Positions 32,502-46,372 of a stretch of 64,000 nt of DNA are shown here, one piece after another; within the stretch, counting starts at the first letter, position 1, and each line of letters begins with the position of its first letter. The notes under the pieces were generated by a model. The model saw only the letters and a program-made list of their open reading frames with translations, was not told the origin of the DNA and searched no databases. Source of the stretch: Lachnospiraceae bacterium (GTDB taxonomy: Bacteria; Bacillota; Clostridia; Lachnospirales; Lachnospiraceae); NCBI GenBank assembly GCA_015058015.1, contig SVDM01000015.1, positions 1-64,000 of the forward strand. The letters are read 5' to 3'. Made by a program: the position numbers and the translations under genes.

Positions 32502-33125
32502 CTATGCTTTTACTGCAGATGTCTTCTTTTTTACTTCCACATCCCCTAAGAGGCCGGCTCTGAAAAGAACTGCTCGAAGAGCAAGATATGCAACCACGGC
32601 TATGGCAGAATTAATTACCGCGTTTATTATTGTGGCATAGGTTGTAACCGCTACCAGGGCTTTGATTGCTGATGCTGCCTTGTCTGCATTGGGGATAAGC
32701 AGTGTATACCATACATATTTTAAGGCCGGCTCAAAGATGCAGTTAAATCCCAAGCCTGCAACGGCTGATATAACTGTCCATCTTGCTATATATGCCTTGT
32801 TATGCTCCTTGGAAAGCTTGGCAATCTTATGGGCAACAAGGCCTACAATAAGACCTATAACCAGCTTGGTGATAAATGTTCTTGGTGCCGACTCGGCGTA
32901 TCCGCCTAAAAGGTCTGCCAGGGTAAGTCCCACAGCACCTGCCGCTCCTCCGTAAGGTCCGCCAAGGAGCAGGGAGCCTAGTACTACAAAGGCATTTCCT
33001 ATATGAATCTTGGTTCCCATGGCATTGATTGCGGGGAATATGGCATATCCTACATAGCACAGGGCTGCCATAAGTCCAGCATATGTTACTTTTAACAGTG
33101 TCTTGTTGTTTTCGAAAGTATTCAT
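32502..33125 (-). CDS. ECF transporter S component (vitamin-type)
   Basis: A 207-residue protein with about six helices and the usual S-component pattern: LLKVTYAGLMAALCYVGY near the N terminus, then IHIGNAFVVLGSLLLGGPYG and AGAVGLTLADLLGGY. It would bind a vitamin or related micronutrient and use a shared ECF energising module encoded elsewhere. The substrate is not certain. A divergent MocR-type PLP regulator suggests vitamin B6 (PdxU-like), but thiamine, queuosine precursor or niacin cannot be excluded. GGAGAG precedes the ATG. Confidence 0.85.
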   Translation of the reverse strand: MNTFENNKTLLKVTYAGLMAALCYVGYAIFPAINAMGTKIHIGNAFVVLGSLLLGGPYGGAAGAVGLTLADLLGGYAESAPRTFITKLVIGLIVGLVAHKIAKLSKEHNKAYIARWTVISAVAGLGFNCIFEPALKYVWYTLLIPNADKAASAIKALVAVTTYATIINAVINSAIAVVAYLALRAVLFRAGLLGDVEVKKKTSAVKA

Positions 33126-34316: not shown

Positions 34317-36908
34317 TTAATACTTCTTCAGTATCTTTCTTATGCTAAGGTGATTCTTACCATCTTCATACTTGTAGATAACATCATCCATGGTTTTCTT
34401 AACCAGATATATACCTAAACCACCCCTTACCCGCTGACTGGCAGAAAGCGTTACATCAGGCTTTTGGGCATTCAGCGGATTAAAAGGTTTTCCGCTGTCT
34501 ATAAGAGTAATTGTAATCTCTGTTCGATCCGGAATAGTCTCAACCCTTACGGTAGCATCCCCTGTCTCACCATCATATGCGTAATGGGCAATATTGCCGA
34601 AGAGCTCATCTATCGCTACATTTATCTGTCCCTTTATGTTTTTAGGACAATTCATAATCACAAGTTCCTCATTCACAAAATCCTGTACCATATCCAAGTT
34701 CTCTACTATGGCATCAACCGTAATCTCTTTTGACAGCGGTTTGGGACCCTTATATTCTATGCAAAGCATGGTCAAATCGTCGAACTGCTCTGCAGATTCT
34801 ACAAATTTCTTTACTTCACTGTCTACCGTGGCAAGAATATCCTCCGGAGCAGATTCAGCTGCCAGATTAACCGCCGCAAGGGTTCTCTCCATTCCAAAGA
34901 GTTCACCGGCTTCATTCATGGCCTCCGGTACACCGTCAGTATAAACAAAAAGCTTGGCTCCCGGCTCCATTAACATCTCATAATTGGTGTGTTTCATGTT
35001 TTTCTTGCCACCGATTACAAAGCCGTGTTTATCCTTTATAATTCTGAAATTGCCATCGACATCCTTCAAAATCGGATACTCATGTCCGGCATTGGCTGCA
35101 GTTACTATTCCTGTGTTTATATCAAGAATTCCTACCCATACCGTTACAAACATCTTCTCTTTATTATTCTCACAGATAAGATTATTTACTTCTTCAAGTA
35201 CGCTTTTCGGATCTCGTTTTGCTATAATACGGCTCTGAATCATACTTTTCGCCATCATCATAAACATGGCTGCCGGTACGCCCTTACCTGATACGTCTGC
35301 CATAACCATGGCAAGATGAGTATCTCCCGCAAAAAAGAAATCATAAAAATCTCCACCTACCTCTTTTGCAGGTGTCATGGAAGCATAGATGGTAAACTCC
35401 GGCCTCTCCGGAAATGCAGGGAAGATATTGGGCAACATGTCTGCCTGTATCTTGGTAGCCAGAGAAAGCTCCGTTCTAACCCTCTCTTTTTCAGACATCT
35501 CATCAACTATCTTGTCAACATAGTCTCTCATTTTGCCCGCAAGAGATTCGAAGTTTTCCGCAAGAACCTGAACTTCATCTCCGGTTTTATACTCGTCCTC
35601 CATCTCGAAGAACATATTAATACCGCTGAATTCCTTCAGGCTGTCTGTCATCTGTACAATGGGCGCAATCTTTTTCTTTATCCTCCTGCTGACATAGACA
35701 TTGGAAACAATCATTATTAATACAATAGCCAACGCCACTATGATAACAGATATATTGAATGTTACTTTTTCTTTATTGATTAGACTATCCGAATACTCCT
35801 CCATCTCGGATATGAGACCTTCCGCCGGTACCATAACTTCATCAACAGACTCAAATAATATCTGGGTCCATCCGGGTACCGGAATATAGCCGTAAGCGGC
35901 ATAGTATTCCCCACCGTCAACATGGACTCTTTCTACACCGGTCTGACCGGAGAGCCCTTTATTAATAAGGGCTTTAAGTTCAGGATTAACCGTGTTTCTC
36001 ACATCTTCCGTAACGTCATCACCAAGTTTTAACTCTCCATCTTCTCTGGGTGATGCTGCCAACTGTCCGTCCTTACCAATTAAAACTGCAAAACCGGATT
36101 TACCTATGGCCCTGTCTTCCATGAATTTTGTCATGCCTTGCATACGAAGACAACCCTCTACCACAGCCACCGGCTTGCCGTGGGCATATACCGGGGCGCT
36201 GTATAACAACTCATGAAAACCGTACAAAGCACCCTTTGTGGTGGATGAGAAGCAGACATCCCCTGCCTTCAAAGCATCATCGAACCATCCGCGTTTTCTG
36301 GCATCGAAATCCTTAATATTACCGTTTTCATCAAATTTCCCTTCAGATAATCTGTCATAGTCTAAGGTTACCCCATCGAGGGTACAGATATAACAGTCAA
36401 TGGTGTAATCATCTGAGCATACTATCTCTTTCATCATCGGCTCGAGGTTTGCCAAACGTTCCATCATCCCGTATGTTTCGGCACTGATATTCTCATAGCC
36501 GTTTGGTGCAAGAAGCTGCAATGCCGGCTCTGAACCCGTCTCCTTCTTGGGCGGACTTATCTTCCTGGGCTTATAATTCTCAGGATGACGAAATACATCT
36601 TCCACCTGACTTCTAAGAGAGATAAGATCCTGCTTTACAATCCTGAATTCGTCGTCCGCTCTTTCCGAAGCCGACAATACCAGGGACTTTAAGTTCTCTT
36701 CTGTTATATATGTCACAGATTTGCCCGAGCGTTCCGTCAAAAGCTGTAATTGTTCTTCTTCCTCGGATATAGTCATATTGTGAAGTCCGGATAAATGGTA
36801 ACCGAAGATAGCCGAAAAGATTACCCCCATGGCAAGCACAAAGGTAACCATCGCCCGCATCATTTTTCCCACTAATCCACTAGAAAAAAGAGAAGAATTC
36901 TTAATCAT
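34317..36908 (-). CDS. Cache-HAMP-SpoIIE phosphatase with RsbW-like ATPase domain
   Basis: About 863 residues. A signal-anchor helix (about 14-38) is followed by an extracytoplasmic dCache-like domain (to about 380), a second helix (about 385-408), HAMP (about 410-465) and a PP2C/SpoIIE phosphatase (about 485-712; VGGDFYDFFFAGD, VMADVSGKGVPAA, VYTDGVPEAMNE, FDDLTMLCIEY). The C terminus is an intact HATPase anti-sigma-kinase domain (about 725-863), with N-box AIDELFGNIAHYAY, G1 DSGKPFNPL and G2 GGLGIYLVKKTMD. Opposing phosphatase and kinase-type modules thus sit in one chain. The ATG at 36908 is favoured (AAGGAG 7 nt upstream). It is last in the operon. Confidence 0.9.
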   Translation of the reverse strand: MIKNSSLFSSGLVGKMMRAMVTFVLAMGVIFSAIFGYHLSGLHNMTISEEEEQLQLLTERSGKSVTYITEENLKSLVLSASERADDEFRIVKQDLISLRSQVEDVFRHPENYKPRKISPPKKETGSEPALQLLAPNGYENISAETYGMMERLANLEPMMKEIVCSDDYTIDCYICTLDGVTLDYDRLSEGKFDENGNIKDFDARKRGWFDDALKAGDVCFSSTTKGALYGFHELLYSAPVYAHGKPVAVVEGCLRMQGMTKFMEDRAIGKSGFAVLIGKDGQLAASPREDGELKLGDDVTEDVRNTVNPELKALINKGLSGQTGVERVHVDGGEYYAAYGYIPVPGWTQILFESVDEVMVPAEGLISEMEEYSDSLINKEKVTFNISVIIVALAIVLIMIVSNVYVSRRIKKKIAPIVQMTDSLKEFSGINMFFEMEDEYKTGDEVQVLAENFESLAGKMRDYVDKIVDEMSEKERVRTELSLATKIQADMLPNIFPAFPERPEFTIYASMTPAKEVGGDFYDFFFAGDTHLAMVMADVSGKGVPAAMFMMMAKSMIQSRIIAKRDPKSVLEEVNNLICENNKEKMFVTVWVGILDINTGIVTAANAGHEYPILKDVDGNFRIIKDKHGFVIGGKKNMKHTNYEMLMEPGAKLFVYTDGVPEAMNEAGELFGMERTLAAVNLAAESAPEDILATVDSEVKKFVESAEQFDDLTMLCIEYKGPKPLSKEITVDAIVENLDMVQDFVNEELVIMNCPKNIKGQINVAIDELFGNIAHYAYDGETGDATVRVETIPDRTEITITLIDSGKPFNPLNAQKPDVTLSASQRVRGGLGIYLVKKTMDDVIYKYEDGKNHLSIRKILKKY

Positions 36909-36919
36909 ACCCATACTCC

Positions 36920-39097
36920 TTATGATTTGCTGTCACTGCCGAGGTATTCAATACACAACATTGTCAAATCATCGAACTGCTCTGCGTCACCCACATGCTT
37001 TCTGACCTCTCTTGCTACATTTGCCAGAATAGCTTCCGGCGAAAAGTCGGCCACTGCATTTACTGCCCCTAAGGCACGTTCCATTCCAAAGAGCACTCCC
37101 GCTTCATTCATAGCCTCCGGGACACCGTCAGTGTACACAAAAAGCTTAGACCCGGGTTTCATGGCTATTTCATAATTGGTGTATTTCATATTTCTCTTGC
37201 CACCGATAACAAAACCGTGCTTATCTTTTATAATCTCAAAGGGTTTGTCCGGCTCCTTGTAGATAGGATATTCGTGACCGGCGTTGGCTGCTGTCAACAC
37301 ACCTGTTTCCAGATCAAGTATTCCAACCCAAACCGTAACGAACATTTTCTCTCTGTTGTTGGCGCAGATAATATTGTTAACATCCTCAAGGGCCTTAGCT
37401 ACATCCTGGTGTGAACTAAGCTGGGTCTGAATCATGGTCTTGGCCATCATCATAAACATGGCCGCCGGCACACCCTTACCCGATACATCCGCCATAACCA
37501 TGGCCAGCTTGTTCTCTGCCGCAAAGAAGAAGTCGTAAAAGTCACCGCCTACTTCCTTTGCCGGTGTCATGGATGCATATATATCAAAATCTGTTCTTTC
37601 GGGAAATGCCGGGAAATTGCTGGGCAGCATATCTGCCTGTATTCGGGTGGCCAGAGACAACTCCGCATTGACCCTCTCCTTCTCAGACATGATGGCCACT
37701 ATCTCTTTAATGTATCTGTTCATCTTCTCCGAGAGGTCTCTAAAGCTCTCCGCCAAAACCTGAATCTCATCCCCGGTCATATAAGATTTGTCCATTTCAA
37801 AGGACATGTTATCTCCTGTCAGTCCGGATACACGTTTAGCCATAAGCGCCAAGGGTTTAGACCGTCTTTTAGCGATTAAGCTGACTGTCACAATACCTAC
37901 AAGCAGGATAACCAGCAACATTTGAATTGCAATAACAGCAGCTTTTCTAAATCCTTCCCGTTTAATTACAAGGTCTTGTGCCGAGACTTCCTTCATATCT
38001 GACAGCAACTCATTGGTGGGCTTCATAACTTCATCCACCGATACAAAAATAATCTGTGTCCATTTATTAGAACTCATATATCCATATGCCGCATAATACT
38101 CCTGCCCGTCAACCTTAAGCTTTGTGACACCCGTTTCTCCCGATAGTCCGAGATTAATGGTTTCCTTTAATCCTGAATTCACACTGTCTCTTACATCAAG
38201 GGTAAGATCCTCATTTATCTTTAATTCACCTGAAGTACGGGGAGAACACACTAATTGACCACGATCACTGATAAGTACGGTAAAACCCGATTCTCCAATA
38301 TCTCGACCTTCAAGAAAGCTCTTTAGCATATCGGTTCTTATAGACCCCTGTAAGACTGCAACAATCTTATCATCTACGTATACCGGGGCAGCATAGGCTA
38401 CCTCGTCGAAATCATATATCATACTGTGTATGGGATAAAAGAAGATATCTCCCCGCTCTATAGCCCCTTTATACCAATCCTGTCCGGTAAAATCTACGGT
38501 GATTACATCACCATCATCCTTTATCTTCTTGTCGGCTAATCTGTCCATAAAAAGGGCCAACCCATCGGTGGTGGCCACTACGATATCTACATTAAACTCA
38601 TTCTGTATCAGGAATTCTTTAAGCATGGGCTCCAGATTAGCCAGACGCTGGGCTGTTTCCATAGACTTGGCAGGTATATTCTCATAACCCATTGAACACA
38701 GCAGCTGCATAGAGGGTACTCCTGCATTATCTTTACTTGGCGGCAAAACGGTTCTTCTTCCGTATTTATTGGGATTCTTGTAGATATCAGCCACCTGATT
38801 CTGGAGCATTCTCAGGTTGTGTGCGGCAATCCAGAATTCATCATCTGCTCTGTCTGCAGCCCATTTTATTCTGGCTCTTAAGTTCTCTTCTATAATGGAT
38901 GTCATAGATTCCGTAGACTTGCCTGCCACAACAGCCTGTTGCCTTTCTTCATCTGCCCGAATCATTCCGTGCATGGAAATCAACTGCACTGCGAAGACAA
39001 CCAAATAAGTCACTCCCATTGCAAGAGCGAATAAAGCAAAAAACTTTATTATGGTTCCGGCTAAACCCCCTTGTTTTGGCTTGTCTTTTTTGTTCAT
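36920..39097 (-). CDS. Cache-HAMP-SpoIIE phosphatase
   Basis: A 725-residue paralogue of the next gene, without the C-terminal ATPase domain. It has an N-terminal helix (about 13-36), an extracytoplasmic Cache region with the same landmarks (QLLCSMGYENIPAKSMETAQ; GESGFTVLISDRGQLVCSPR), a second helix (about 385-408), HAMP and a PP2C/SpoIIE phosphatase ending at about 720 (VGGDFYDFFFAAENK, FDDLTMLCIEYLG). It probably dephosphorylates a STAS-type antagonist that is not encoded here. GGGGGAG precedes the ATG. The gap to the following gene is only 11 nt, so the two are co-translated. Confidence 0.9.
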   Translation of the reverse strand: MNKKDKPKQGGLAGTIIKFFALFALAMGVTYLVVFAVQLISMHGMIRADEERQQAVVAGKSTESMTSIIEENLRARIKWAADRADDEFWIAAHNLRMLQNQVADIYKNPNKYGRRTVLPPSKDNAGVPSMQLLCSMGYENIPAKSMETAQRLANLEPMLKEFLIQNEFNVDIVVATTDGLALFMDRLADKKIKDDGDVITVDFTGQDWYKGAIERGDIFFYPIHSMIYDFDEVAYAAPVYVDDKIVAVLQGSIRTDMLKSFLEGRDIGESGFTVLISDRGQLVCSPRTSGELKINEDLTLDVRDSVNSGLKETINLGLSGETGVTKLKVDGQEYYAAYGYMSSNKWTQIIFVSVDEVMKPTNELLSDMKEVSAQDLVIKREGFRKAAVIAIQMLLVILLVGIVTVSLIAKRRSKPLALMAKRVSGLTGDNMSFEMDKSYMTGDEIQVLAESFRDLSEKMNRYIKEIVAIMSEKERVNAELSLATRIQADMLPSNFPAFPERTDFDIYASMTPAKEVGGDFYDFFFAAENKLAMVMADVSGKGVPAAMFMMMAKTMIQTQLSSHQDVAKALEDVNNIICANNREKMFVTVWVGILDLETGVLTAANAGHEYPIYKEPDKPFEIIKDKHGFVIGGKRNMKYTNYEIAMKPGSKLFVYTDGVPEAMNEAGVLFGMERALGAVNAVADFSPEAILANVAREVRKHVGDAEQFDDLTMLCIEYLGSDSKS

Positions 39098-39123: not shown

Positions 39124-41484
39124 CTATGATTCGATTTTAGCCAAATGCTCCATTATGGTATCCGTTGCCACAAGACACTTTAAGGATGCTGCCTGAAGTT
39201 CTGCATAGAACCCTTCAGCCCCATCTGCAAGACCATCCGATACCGCTTTCATAAGCAGGCATCTTACCCCATTAGCCTCACAGGTTAATACGATACCCGC
39301 CGATTCCATATCACAGATATCTCCACCAAAGGTTTCATGCAGGTAGCTCTTTTCTTCCGCTGTGCCGATGAACTTATCCCCTGAACAGCAAGTTACAAGA
39401 GAAAGCCCTTCCATGGCAGACATAGCAGTTTTAACCAGACTCTCACTGGTGCGAAGATAGATGGAATCATGACCATCAACCTGCCCTATGGCCAGATCCA
39501 TGAACTCAGAACAGTCGTATTTGTAATGAACTACACGCTCAACCAGACAGACCTTCCTAGTCTTCATATCAGTAGTTAAACCACCCACTACCCCAAAGTT
39601 TACTATGTAGCTTACGGAGTATTTCGCAATTAAATACTGTACGCCGGAGGAAGCAGCGATTTCGCCCATTCCGGCCTGCAGAATGTATATATCATATGTA
39701 TCACGCTCTACCAAAAACAGGTTAAACCCGGGAGGTGCCTCAAGCTCCTTCCAGGCCTTGTAATGCTCAAATATAGCGTCCATCTCTATGGCAACAATAA
39801 GTCCTATTCGCTTCTTACCGGAAGGCTTAGAGGATAGTTTTTCCCGAATATTTGGCAAAAGCAAATGACCGGATGTAAAGCCCTCATCATCATAATCTTT
39901 TGAATTGGGGCAGACCGTAACCTCCCAACCAAGTTCAGTAAATTCCTGCCTAATGATTTCCAATTCATCTATTGGTCCGTAACCGCAATCTACGGCATTA
40001 AAGGTCTGATAAATAGTAGTTATCTCAATGATGAACTTACTCTTGTCAAAGAGCCTGTCTATTTCGTAAGCATCTATTATCGAATCCTCGCATACGGCAA
40101 ATGTCAGAGCGTACTTTTTTCCTTTTGGCGCCGGGAGTGTCTCTGCGATGGCAGCTATCTCCTCAATAGTCAGAGATCTGTTACCATACATCTTCCTTCG
40201 AATGCTCTCATCCGTAGAATCAATGCTAATGTGAAGCACCGCATTGCCATCATATACATTGTTTTTGATGCGGCAATACTCCAACAGAAAGTCCTTTGTA
40301 TTGCCACTTTTTGGCATCATGGTTGAAAGAGAAGGAGTGATAACCTTGGCATCCGCTTTCTTTCTTACGCACTGACACAGGCCTGACTCAATGAATTCCA
40401 ATACTTTGTCATTGAATACCGGCTCACCCATTCTGGAGAAATCCACTACCATAAGCTCTGTGGCAGCACTTCCGGTATTGCTTGTAATTGTGTCAATCTG
40501 ATACTCCAAATCCTCTATTGATGCATTCCCATGGAAGCCGAAAGCCGGGCAGTCGCAAAAAGCGCACTTACCTAAACATCCCCTTTGGCATGATAGGTTA
40601 ATTCGCCACACCTTGTCATAAGCTTTGTCAGGAAAGGATAGGAATTCAAGATTACGCTTTTCATCAACGTAGATGGTTCCAAGGGCACGTTCAAATATCC
40701 TTAAGCCTTCATATTTCTTCTTCAAAAAGGCTACATAACACATGATAACCAGGGCAATGCCCATAACAGCAAGAATGGTATAACCAATGTAGGCGAATAT
40801 CTCTCCCCATACTGCAGGTACCCCGCGTTTTTTGCTGCTAATAAGCAAGGCTATAATTATGCCTGCTGTTATTACGAGCTGTACTAAGGCAGACCAGGCT
40901 ATAATGACCTCGTTAACGGATAGCCGGCGTCTTCCGTCGTGGTAATACTCAGAATATACCCAATCCAACAGCACCATAGCCGGCAAGCCGAATATCAGGC
41001 ACATACAAAGGTTATTCTGGAATACAAAAAAGGCACTTTCTAAGAAACTGCTGCCGGATACAAAAAACTGAATTGCACCTACAGAAAGACCGATAACGGC
41101 GGCATTTACCGCCATAAGGAACGCAAAACAGACAGTCACTTTCGGACTGTCAAGTCGCATCTTGCGAGATGTGCACCCCACGTAACGTGTCCACGCATAG
41201 AAGGGTAACGCTCCATATATAATCTGGGGAATAAAGCCTAAACATGCAACAGCAATACCATAACCCGACAGTAAGTCCGATGCAAAATTCGCCACTGCGC
41301 AAGCAAGGATGGCAGGCCATCCATATGCTATTCCAAGTATCGGATTCATAGCCGCCGATGGTCTGACACCCGTTACATCATAAGCCGCTAAGACAGTATT
41401 AGAGAAAAAGGTTAGTATTAAAAACAAAACAGCGGTAAAAAAGAAAACCTCCCATTTCCGCCTTCCGGAATTCTTGTTAATCAC
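39124..41484 (-). CDS. Membrane protein fused to RlmN-like radical SAM and MTA/SAH nucleosidase domains
   Basis: About 786 residues in three parts. Residues about 10-255 form 6-8 membrane helices, vaguely like ECF S components or small receptors (GVRPSAAMNPILGIAYGWPA). Residues about 290-545 are a radical SAM domain that aligns with RlmN/Cfr: LSCQRGCLGKCAFC (Cys303, 307, 310) and SRMGEPVFN. The two cysteines that RlmN uses for methyl transfer are replaced (Asn296 and Ser538 by my alignment). Residues 558-786 are an MTA/SAH nucleosidase with intact acid residues (Glu567 in VAIEMD, Glu727 in CDMESA, Asp750 in VSDGLAD). GTG at 41484 is chosen, with GGAGG 5 nt upstream. No known family member comes to mind. 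Confidence 0.85.
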   Translation of the reverse strand: MINKNSGRRKWEVFFFTAVLFLILTFFSNTVLAAYDVTGVRPSAAMNPILGIAYGWPAILACAVANFASDLLSGYGIAVACLGFIPQIIYGALPFYAWTRYVGCTSRKMRLDSPKVTVCFAFLMAVNAAVIGLSVGAIQFFVSGSSFLESAFFVFQNNLCMCLIFGLPAMVLLDWVYSEYYHDGRRRLSVNEVIIAWSALVQLVITAGIIIALLISSKKRGVPAVWGEIFAYIGYTILAVMGIALVIMCYVAFLKKKYEGLRIFERALGTIYVDEKRNLEFLSFPDKAYDKVWRINLSCQRGCLGKCAFCDCPAFGFHGNASIEDLEYQIDTITSNTGSAATELMVVDFSRMGEPVFNDKVLEFIESGLCQCVRKKADAKVITPSLSTMMPKSGNTKDFLLEYCRIKNNVYDGNAVLHISIDSTDESIRRKMYGNRSLTIEEIAAIAETLPAPKGKKYALTFAVCEDSIIDAYEIDRLFDKSKFIIEITTIYQTFNAVDCGYGPIDELEIIRQEFTELGWEVTVCPNSKDYDDEGFTSGHLLLPNIREKLSSKPSGKKRIGLIVAIEMDAIFEHYKAWKELEAPPGFNLFLVERDTYDIYILQAGMGEIAASSGVQYLIAKYSVSYIVNFGVVGGLTTDMKTRKVCLVERVVHYKYDCSEFMDLAIGQVDGHDSIYLRTSESLVKTAMSAMEGLSLVTCCSGDKFIGTAEEKSYLHETFGGDICDMESAGIVLTCEANGVRCLLMKAVSDGLADGAEGFYAELQAASLKCLVATDTIMEHLAKIES

Positions 41485-41564
41485 ATTTGCCTCCATAGCG
41501 CATATTTTACTGTCAACATCATAACATATTATGAAGTTGTCTTGCAATTATACGCGCAAAAAAG

Positions 41565-43607: not shown

Positions 43608-46349
43608 TTAAATAATCTTTGCAGTGATTACATTTCTGCCATCTTCATAGCCATAGGCAATCTCCCTGCATTCATTGGTGATAATCGCACGGGACAGTTC
43701 GTCTGCTTCTTCTAAGGGATTCTGCTCCCTGCCGTCATAATATATCTTCATATCCACCAGTCCATCGCCTGTCTCGTTATATTCAAAGGTGAGGGTCAGC
43801 TCCTCATCCCCGGATAATTTCTGAAGTAATGTATTATAACATAATTCTTCTGCTATCCTCTGCATCCTGTGAACAAGCATCCGGTCTATCAGGTTATTAA
43901 CCCCGAACTGTTCCAAGCCGGCGACAAATTCAACATAATTAAATCGTCCTGCCTGCATGGTTGTCTCGAATACCTTAATCTTTCGAATAAACCGTCTTGT
44001 AAGCTCGCCTGTGGGTGCTTCGAATATCTCTTTGGGAGTACCCTCTTCGTATATCAGGCCCTGATCCATGTAAAACACCCTGGTTGATACATCTCTGGCA
44101 AAGCTCATCTCATGGGTAACCACAAGCATGGTACATCCTTCCCCTGCAAGGCCTTTAAGTACCGCCAAAACTTCCCCTACCATAGTGGGGTCAAGGGCGG
44201 AAGTGGGTTCATCAAACATAATCACATGGGGATCCATTGCAAGGGCTCTAACAATAGCAACTCTTTGCTGCTGTCCACCGGACAACTCTGACGGAAGACT
44301 TAATGCCTTATCGGCAAGCCCCACTCTGCCAAGAAGGTCCATGCCTCTCCGGGCCGCTTCTTCCTTGCTTCTACCGAGAATCTCCGTCTGAGCCAGGGTA
44401 ATATTCTCGATAACCGTCAGATGGCTAAAGAGATTAAATGTCTGGAATACCAGTCCCAGCCTCTTTCTAAGACTGCTTAAGTCATAGCCTTTCTGAGTGG
44501 TATCCTCCCCTTCAAATAAAATGCTGCCTTCATCCGGCGTAAGTATCTGATTAAGGAGGTACAAAAGGGTGCTCTTACCGGTTCCCGACGGCCCGATGAT
44601 TGATATTACATCACCCTTATTAATAGTACAGTTAATATCTTTAAGGGGGGTAATCTCCCCAAAACTTTTTCTTAAATGAGCCACTTCTATAAGGGGCCCT
44701 GCCTCATTTTCCAAAGAATTGGGTTCCCTGGGGGCCAGTGAATTATTACCCGTAGCGGAATATCCCTTTACAGCCCTTGTAATATCTCCCGGTACAGAGT
44801 GCCTCTTTGGTTCAATCCTTTTTTCAGCAATGCGAAGAAGCTTCACAATAACTGTCGAAAGAAGGAAGTATACCAGGGCTGTGAAAAACAGTGGGAAGAA
44901 AGCGTCAAAGGTTCTGCTTCTGATGATATCCGATACCTTGGTAAGTTCCTCCACCGATACATATCCCGCAATAGATGTCATCTTAATAGTTGAAATCAAT
45001 TGGCCGCTATACACCGGAATAATATGAACCATCGCCTGGGGTAGTACCACCTTAAAGAATGCATGTGCCCGCTCAAAGCCTAAGGCTTCTGCAGCCAGGT
45101 ACTGCCCATCCGGAACCGCTTCTATTCCGGTTCTGAATATCTCTGCCGAATAAGCGGAGAAATCCAATGAGAAAGCAATAGCTGAAACCCAGAAGGGCGA
45201 GAGTCCGCTTTCCTTGAATATGATGTAGCATAAAACCATAAGCCATACCAGCAAGGGTATGCCTCTGAATATCCTGATATATATTCTGGCAAATGCCGAT
45301 AGGGGGCCATCCTTTCTCATTCTCATAAAACATATGAGAGCGCCAAGTATGGTTCCGCATATACCTGCCATAGCTGATAATGCCAGGGTCAGGCCTAGGC
45401 CTGATAGCATCATCTTATAGCGGCCTTCCCTAATAAAATTACGTTCGATACTCTCTTTTATGTTATCAACAAAGGCTTGAGCCTTAGGTACTTCTATCTG
45501 AGCTCTGTTAGTTCTTACTGCAAGGTATATGGGGTCATCTAAAAGGGGGCTTGAGACATTGATGGTTTCCGCTCTCTCGGATGTATGTTCAACCGCATCT
45601 GCCAGAATATCATAGGTACCTGCGGTAAGACCTGTTATACCTGACGAATAAGGAACAGCCTCTATCTGGGGAGTATAGCCGTAAGCTTCACAGAATCCGT
45701 ATATCAATTCCATAAATGCTCCCGTCAGCTTACTTCCCGAGTAAAATGTCATAGGCTCCCACAACCCGGAGGTTGTAACACGAATCTTTCCCTTCTCCCC
45801 TGTAAAATGATATTCTTTAAGGACATCCCCCTGCCGGTTCTTATCCGTCCATTTCTCAAATATCTTATCATACTCCCCACTGGTTCTGATATTATGAAGA
45901 TACTGATCGAATTCATCTCTAAGAGCATCTCCTTCCGGAGTCTTCTGCATCCCGAAACAGGTCTGATACATCTTAAAGTAGCCATCTATAAAGGCAATCT
46001 CCGGATGGCTAACCAGTAATTCCGGTTTGGCACTGACGTATCCCACCACCGCATCTATGGAACCTGCGGCAAGGGCATTGTATGCATCGGCAAATGACTC
46101 GTATTGTAAGACTGTGGCCTCAGGATATCTCTCCTTAACATCCAGAACCCAATCCTTGCCGGTTAGACATCCGAACTTCGTCCCGGGTTTACTCAAATCC
46201 TCGTATGTAATATCCGTAGTAGGATATCCATCCTCCCCCAAAGTGGTACTCTCATCTGTCACATAGGTGGTCCCCACCAGCTGTGGCAGAAGGATAGCAA
46301 GCACTATGACAAACAGGATTATAATCTCCCATTTCTTATTCTTCTTCAA
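43608..46349 (-). CDS. Single-chain amino-acid-type ABC importer with RsbW-like C-terminal domain
   Basis: About 913 residues (positions below count from the GTG at 46358). A signal anchor (10-28) is followed by two periplasmic-binding-protein type 3 segments, one partial (about 48-175) and one fuller (about 190-285). Next come a HisM-type permease (about 312-512; [19 protein letters not shown]) and an ABC ATPase (Walker A GPSGTGKS 589-596, LSGGQ 692-696, Walker B MFDEP). Residues 805-916 resemble an anti-sigma HATPase domain, with N-box-like [16 protein letters not shown] and a [12 protein letters not shown] end; the glycine-rich G2 box is lost. TTG at 46349 is favoured, with GGGGGTG 5-6 nt upstream. 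Confidence 0.85.
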
Positions 46350-46372
46350 AAGAAGCACCCCCTGATATTCTA

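Follow-up and report, generated by a model that had tools for sequence, protein, structure and literature searches.

A three-domain gene and its surroundings

The window, by which we mean the whole 64,000-nucleotide stretch analysed here (positions 1 to 64,000 of contig SVDM01000015.1, from a Lachnospiraceae bacterium), carries on its minus strand a coding sequence of 786 aa (39124..41484) in which an S-component-like membrane domain, an RlmN-like radical SAM domain, and an MTAN-like nucleosidase domain are fused. The reading frame is open from a TTG at 41547 to the stop at 39124. Its start codon is likely the GTG at 41484, which is preceded by a GGAGG (41494-41490) 5 bases upstream and agrees with the start of a homologue, L031, so the gene spans exactly the positions assigned to it in an earlier note made from the sequence. 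The four motifs that the note had read in this frame (LSCQRGCLGKCAFC, SRMGEPVFN, SIDSTDESIRRKMYG, and TSGHLL) are all present.

Full-length homologues occur in three other Clostridia MAGs (rumen, horse faeces, and other), with 60% identity for L031 and 53% for both L032 and L033. The architecture is present in at least four genomes, including that of the window, and the three-part fusion proposed in the earlier note is both real and conserved. Because three other Clostridia genomes share the domain order, we excluded an assembly error, and we regard the three-domain architecture as near certain; the profile and fold matches of its domains (below), together with this shared order, are well outside what chance would give. 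All three domains are under purifying selection, as differences are far fewer at codon position 2 than at position 3; for the radical SAM domain of the window and L031, the values are 0.25 and 0.66, respectively. A further locus, L034, holds a decayed fusion with an intact nucleosidase and a radical SAM domain that has lost one half and has a stop within the remnant. No fusion copies were found on plasmids, where the only matches were to distant nucleosidases. In the searches run here, the domain combination, the proposed phage origin (below), and the attachment to an S-component are new, and each piece has a known fold. A literature search, with most subscription journals outside its reach, found no description of a radical SAM-MTAN fusion.

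The first downstream gene, also on the minus strand (36920..39097), lies 26 bases from the fusion and encodes a dCache domain with a SpoIIE-type phosphatase (Pfam dCache_1 and SpoIIE); the two genes are probably in the same operon. It is followed on the same strand by a gene (34317..36914) for a protein with dCache, SpoIIE phosphatase, and HATPase_c_2 (anti-sigma-like kinase) domains in Pfam. A SpoIIE phosphatase is also located directly downstream of the fusion in L031, and such neighbours are absent at the L032 and L033 loci. No riboswitch or other RNA was detected upstream at the Rfam gathering threshold in the window, and no meaningful match was seen in L031-L033. Elsewhere in the window, positions 43608-46358 encode two solute-binding domains, an ABC permease, and an ABC ATPase in one chain, a single-polypeptide importer of the amino-acid type with a C-terminal tail. 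A separate riboflavin-type ECF S-component (Pfam ECF-ribofla_trS, 80.7 bits) is encoded at 32502-33125, ~6 kb from the fusion.

The radical SAM domain and its phage relatives

Profile, structure match, and tree all place residues 259-557 (39814..40710, minus strand) in the phrog_24834 family with an RlmN fold. In an AlphaFold2 model (pLDDT 82.8, pTM 0.61) compared by VIA-align, residues 260-544 matched E. coli RlmN (5hr6, C118A) with a Z of 23.5 and an rmsd of 2.8 over 257 residues, and residues 555-781 matched MTAN structures with a Z of 24.5; both folds predicted by the earlier note were thus recovered. The general Pfam Radical_SAM model gave a weak match (19 bits), and the score with the curated NCBIfam RlmN model, 25.1 bits, fell far short of its cut-off of 290. 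Among PHROGs, the domain matches phrog_24834 (E=3.6e-37, profile positions 62-322 of 336), a member of which is encoded by Bacteroides phage Versailles (WAK79139.1). When viral contigs were scanned, one pass confirmed 286 relatives, and a second, with a different query, gave 66 loci. When sampled genomes were searched with a profile of the fusion domain, there were three strong stand-alone relatives: two (G302 and G494) on contigs that are phage-like by their neighbour genes, and one (G528) in a mobile-element-like region.

In a quickly built tree rooted on distant sequences, the four fusions form one group (SH-aLRT 100) on a long stem within a set of gut and rumen phage proteins (98). The simplest reading would be that gut Clostridia captured a phage gene once. 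An altered host RlmN was excluded as the source of the domain, since a canonical RlmN (398 bits) is encoded in the genome as well and the domain falls among phage proteins in the tree. A second weak match of the RlmN model in the genome proved by sequence to be an unrelated SPASM-type radical SAM protein.

The phrog_24834 phage proteins are homologous to the fusion domain over its whole length and have in common with it the surroundings of the cluster (GCxxxCxFCD and RMGEP). They differ in being stand-alone proteins with an invariant Thr at the position of RlmN Cys118 and a Cys in the sequence TCGN, whereas the fusions have altered these and other substrate-side residues. With RlmN and Cfr, the window domain shares the fold, the cluster motif, and the GEP motif, but it lacks both catalytic cysteines and the RNA-binding N-terminal domain.

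Class A methylases depend on two Cys: in RlmN, Cys355 carries the methyl group, and without Cys118 the RNA adduct is not resolved (PMC9692996). The cluster motif itself, CxxxCxxC (Cys303, Cys307, and Cys310; 40555..40578, minus strand), is invariant in the fusions, the phage relatives, and RlmN. In the alignment, the Cys118 position, which lies 7 residues ahead of the cluster, is occupied by Asn296 (40597..40599, minus strand), and the Cys355 position, in the segment corresponding to 'ACGQ', by Ser538 (39871..39873, minus strand), in agreement with the earlier note that both cysteines are missing from the window copy. Whether homologues always lose both was a separate matter, and here the two positions part. 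That of Cys118 is never Cys, either in the four fusions (Asn, Ser, Met, and Ser) or in the phage relatives (Thr in 143 of 143). At the Cys355 position, the four fusions have Ser, Cys, Cys, and Asn; the Cys is present in L031, L032, the decayed L034, and all 141 of the complete phage copies, where it lies in TCGN. From the tree, two separate losses of this Cys are probable, one in the window lineage and the other in L033. Homologues that keep the RlmN cysteines, which the earlier note had named as grounds for refuting it, therefore exist for one of the two positions.

Around the cluster and SAM, the fusions keep CxxxCxxC, GEP, TMMP, and Arg450. Motifs that are changed in the fusions though invariant in the phage proteins are NxHxA before RMGEP, LQxSxN, LNF, and KxTPxH. 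This pattern suggests that the fusions can still cleave SAM and that their substrate side has changed. Judged from its sequence, the window protein cannot perform RlmN-type methyl transfer as now understood, because the resolving Cys is always missing and the methyl-carrying Cys is missing in two of the four fusions.

Several features of the phage genes were also observed. An RlmN-like radical SAM gene is split in Moorella phage MTATph1 (L103:4833-5795), Kehishuvirus 'tikkala' (L106:4968-5890), and Vibrio phage D479 (L100:4824-5904) into a core ORF and a tiny ORF with the ACGQ(L/M) cysteine segment, which in D479 is repeated in tandem so that it occurs twice. Selenocysteine at the in-frame stop of the Moorella phage relative was excluded; the stop is TAA, and the ACGQL cysteine is in a separate small ORF. 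Genes for NAD salvage or synthesis (nicotinamidase, NAPRT, NadE, and NAMPT) lie no more than 8 genes from a phrog_24834 radical SAM gene in 17 of 144 viral loci, a raw count that includes some near-identical loci; among them are L112, L160, L200-L203, L208, L227, L236, and L245. An NMNAT-like gene adjoins a mobile-element copy, L098, and a SAM synthetase is found near the radical SAM gene in 7 viral loci. Such a sizeable group of phage enzymes that resemble RlmN but have no resolving Cys suggests that uncharacterised radical chemistry is common in gut and rumen phages, for which the fusion offers a cellular handle.

The membrane and nucleosidase domains

The earlier note had treated the N-terminal part as a membrane tether. 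It is probably more than that: residues 1-182 (40939..41484, minus strand), with six predicted helices, appear related to QueT-type ECF S-components through the Pfam QueT matches of homologous domains. Relative to the QueT cut-off of 33.7 bits, the domain of L033 scored above (40.3) and those of L031 and L032 just below (33.3 and 32.0); the window copy has no Pfam match and is 44-54% identical to these three. The domain modelled alone, with poor confidence (pLDDT 60.7), gave no significant match in a structure search. Residues 183-258 (40711..40938, minus strand) form an extra helical hairpin, defined by helices 190-216 and 222-257 of the model and by alignment with L259 and L260. Ahead of it stands a conserved S[VL]NE motif, which SpoIIE-fused copies also have; related membrane domains are N-terminal on SpoIIE phosphatases in G094 and G074.

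S-component folds are known from receptors, some of them fused to SpoIIE-type phosphatases (PMC11109136). Both these receptors and QueT-type S-components have in common with our domain the six-helix region with Pfam QueT similarity, and fusion to SpoIIE phosphatases is shared as well. Unlike QueT-type S-components, the fusion has the extra hairpin and attached enzymes, and no ECF partner genes were seen adjacent to it. The domain may sense, bind, or transport a ligand. With the fusion, an enzyme would join the short list of attachments to S-component folds, which have so far been described as transporters and receptors. At another locus (L260:4398-9444), a QueT-like/SpoIIE/HATPase gene adjoins genes for an adenine deaminase and a PNP_UDP_1 nucleosidase, which hints at a purine ligand.

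Pfam, structure, and alignment identify residues 558-786 (39127..39813, minus strand) as an MTAN-fold nucleosidase (PNP_UDP_1, E=1.3e-23). The catalytic residues Glu567, Glu727, and Asp750 are the equivalents of Glu12, Glu174, and Asp197, which are present in the fused and the free-standing forms. Thus, the assignment to the MTA/SAH nucleosidases (MtnN/Pfs) in the earlier note stands for fold and catalytic acids but not for the curated NCBIfam cut-offs, which were missed (86.8 versus 169 and 44.6 versus 73.8 bits); free-standing orthologues also score below them. The domain differs from MtnN/Pfs in belonging to a subclade of its own, in having Lys-Ala-Val-Ser-Asp in place of Arg-Ala-Ile-Ser-Asp, and in being joined to two other domains. 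The VHYKYDCSEF segment, in the 5'-pocket, departs from canonical MTAN; it is common to the free-standing subclade, so a shift in specificity, if there is one, would not be linked to the fusion.

The domain is the sole MTAN-like enzyme in the genome, since the other PNP_UDP_1 proteins look by sequence like DeoD and uridine phosphorylase. Because SahH is present, with neither LuxS nor another MTAN found in the host genome, the non-redundant, expected substrates would be MTA and 5'-deoxyadenosine. In many related genomes, among them one of the same genus (G261), an orthologue of the nucleosidase stands alone (64-82% identity). Fused and free-standing nucleosidases are intermixed in a tree of this domain, and a single origin of the fusion was not rejected (p-AU 0.28). 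A possible role in anti-phage defence was also considered; here the nucleosidase matched a PADLOC effector model over no more than a short stretch, at 23.7 bits.

Possible functions of the fused protein

5'-Deoxyadenosine inhibits radical SAM enzymes (PMC8102628). We tentatively favour a membrane-anchored radical SAM enzyme that clears its own 5'-deoxyadenosine, at a probability somewhat short of even. The S-component-like module would bind a small molecule or anchor the enzyme near it, the phage-derived radical SAM domain would split SAM reductively and act on a substrate different from that of its phage relatives, and the fused nucleosidase would remove 5'-deoxyadenosine, together with MTA made elsewhere, thereby relieving product inhibition. 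In favour of this, the cluster, the SAM-binding motifs, and the catalytic acids of the nucleosidase are intact, and the architecture recurs in the window, L031, L032, and L033. The fold matches, the purifying selection on all three domains, the altered substrate-side residues, and the substrates expected for the nucleosidase in a host with SahH speak for it as well, and clearing by the fused nucleosidase is plausible. Against it, because the nucleosidase is the only MTAN-like enzyme of the genome, it must serve all the other radical SAM enzymes, and the fusion need not concern the attached domain. Furthermore, free-standing close orthologues (65-82% identical) exist, L034 keeps its nucleosidase though its radical SAM domain has decayed, and the nucleosidase has a non-canonical 5'-pocket segment and scores below the MTAN cut-offs. 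A more elaborate version, which we find doubtful, is that uptake, radical conversion, and by-product removal occur in one chain: the S-component module would deliver a small molecule directly to the captured phage active site, which would work without the two cysteines of RlmN, and the built-in nucleosidase would clear the co-product.

As the main alternative, it is unlikely, but conceivable, that the protein serves the salvage of nucleosides or deazapurines. The QueT-like domain would import a purine-like compound (a queuosine precursor or a 5'-modified nucleoside), the nucleosidase would free the base, and the radical SAM domain would convert it, as a one-chain counterpart of the steps of QueT, QueK, and QueL, which are described salvage proteins (PMC11130926). 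The two systems are alike in theme only: the kinds of function are uptake, nucleoside cleavage, and radical SAM chemistry in both, and the fusion has them in a single chain. The QueT similarity, above the Pfam cut-off in L033, agrees with salvage, as does the adenine deaminase and PNP_UDP_1 nucleosidase pair adjoining the QueT-like/SpoIIE gene of G094. In addition, the host has Tgt without a QueC over the cut-off, so queuosine precursors are probably needed from outside. However, the PDB matches of the radical SAM domain, by structure and by sequence, are RlmN and Cfr; a PDB sequence search with its profile gave no queuine lyase, nor was one among the best 50 matches listed for the whole chain by VIA-align, a list that leaves room for one further down. 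The characterised QueK is a member of a different family (IPR023186; PMC11130926) from that of the fusion nucleosidase, which keeps the adenosine-type catalytic set, and no que genes or Rfam riboswitches are near any fusion, except for queA/tgt-like genes ~4 kb away in L032.

We also hold it improbable, to the same degree as salvage, that the protein is a sensor, in which the S-component-like domain receives a ligand and signals to the SpoIIE phosphatases encoded next to it, with the radical SAM domain reduced to a switch module and the nucleosidase a housekeeping passenger. The direct fusions of the same membrane domain with SpoIIE phosphatases (G094 and G074), the phosphatase genes directly downstream in the window and L031, and the known receptor role of S-component folds, SpoIIE-type fusions included (PMC11109136), all fit such a sensor. 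Yet the cluster and SAM motifs are all intact and under purifying selection, L032 and L033 lack the phosphatase neighbours, and the phosphatases of the window and L031 have sensor domains of their own. Far less probable again is that the protein methylates RNA as a class A (RlmN/Cfr-type) enzyme that has gained a membrane anchor. The RlmN fold, and the Cys at the Cys355 position in two fusions and the L034 remnant, would be expected of such an enzyme, but the Cys118 position is never Cys, the window copy lacks Cys355 as well, the RNA-binding N-terminal domain of RlmN is missing, and a canonical RlmN is already present in the genome.

Radical SAM enzymes in general face inhibition by their product 5'-deoxyadenosine. 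If our favoured reading of a self-clearing enzyme is right, an attached nucleosidase would be a natural solution, which could be copied in enzyme engineering.

Within the nucleosidase subclade, one further locus (L037:5992-7574) has a canonical-looking MTAN-type nucleosidase beside a variant of the fusion subclade, which suggests that the two have different substrates.
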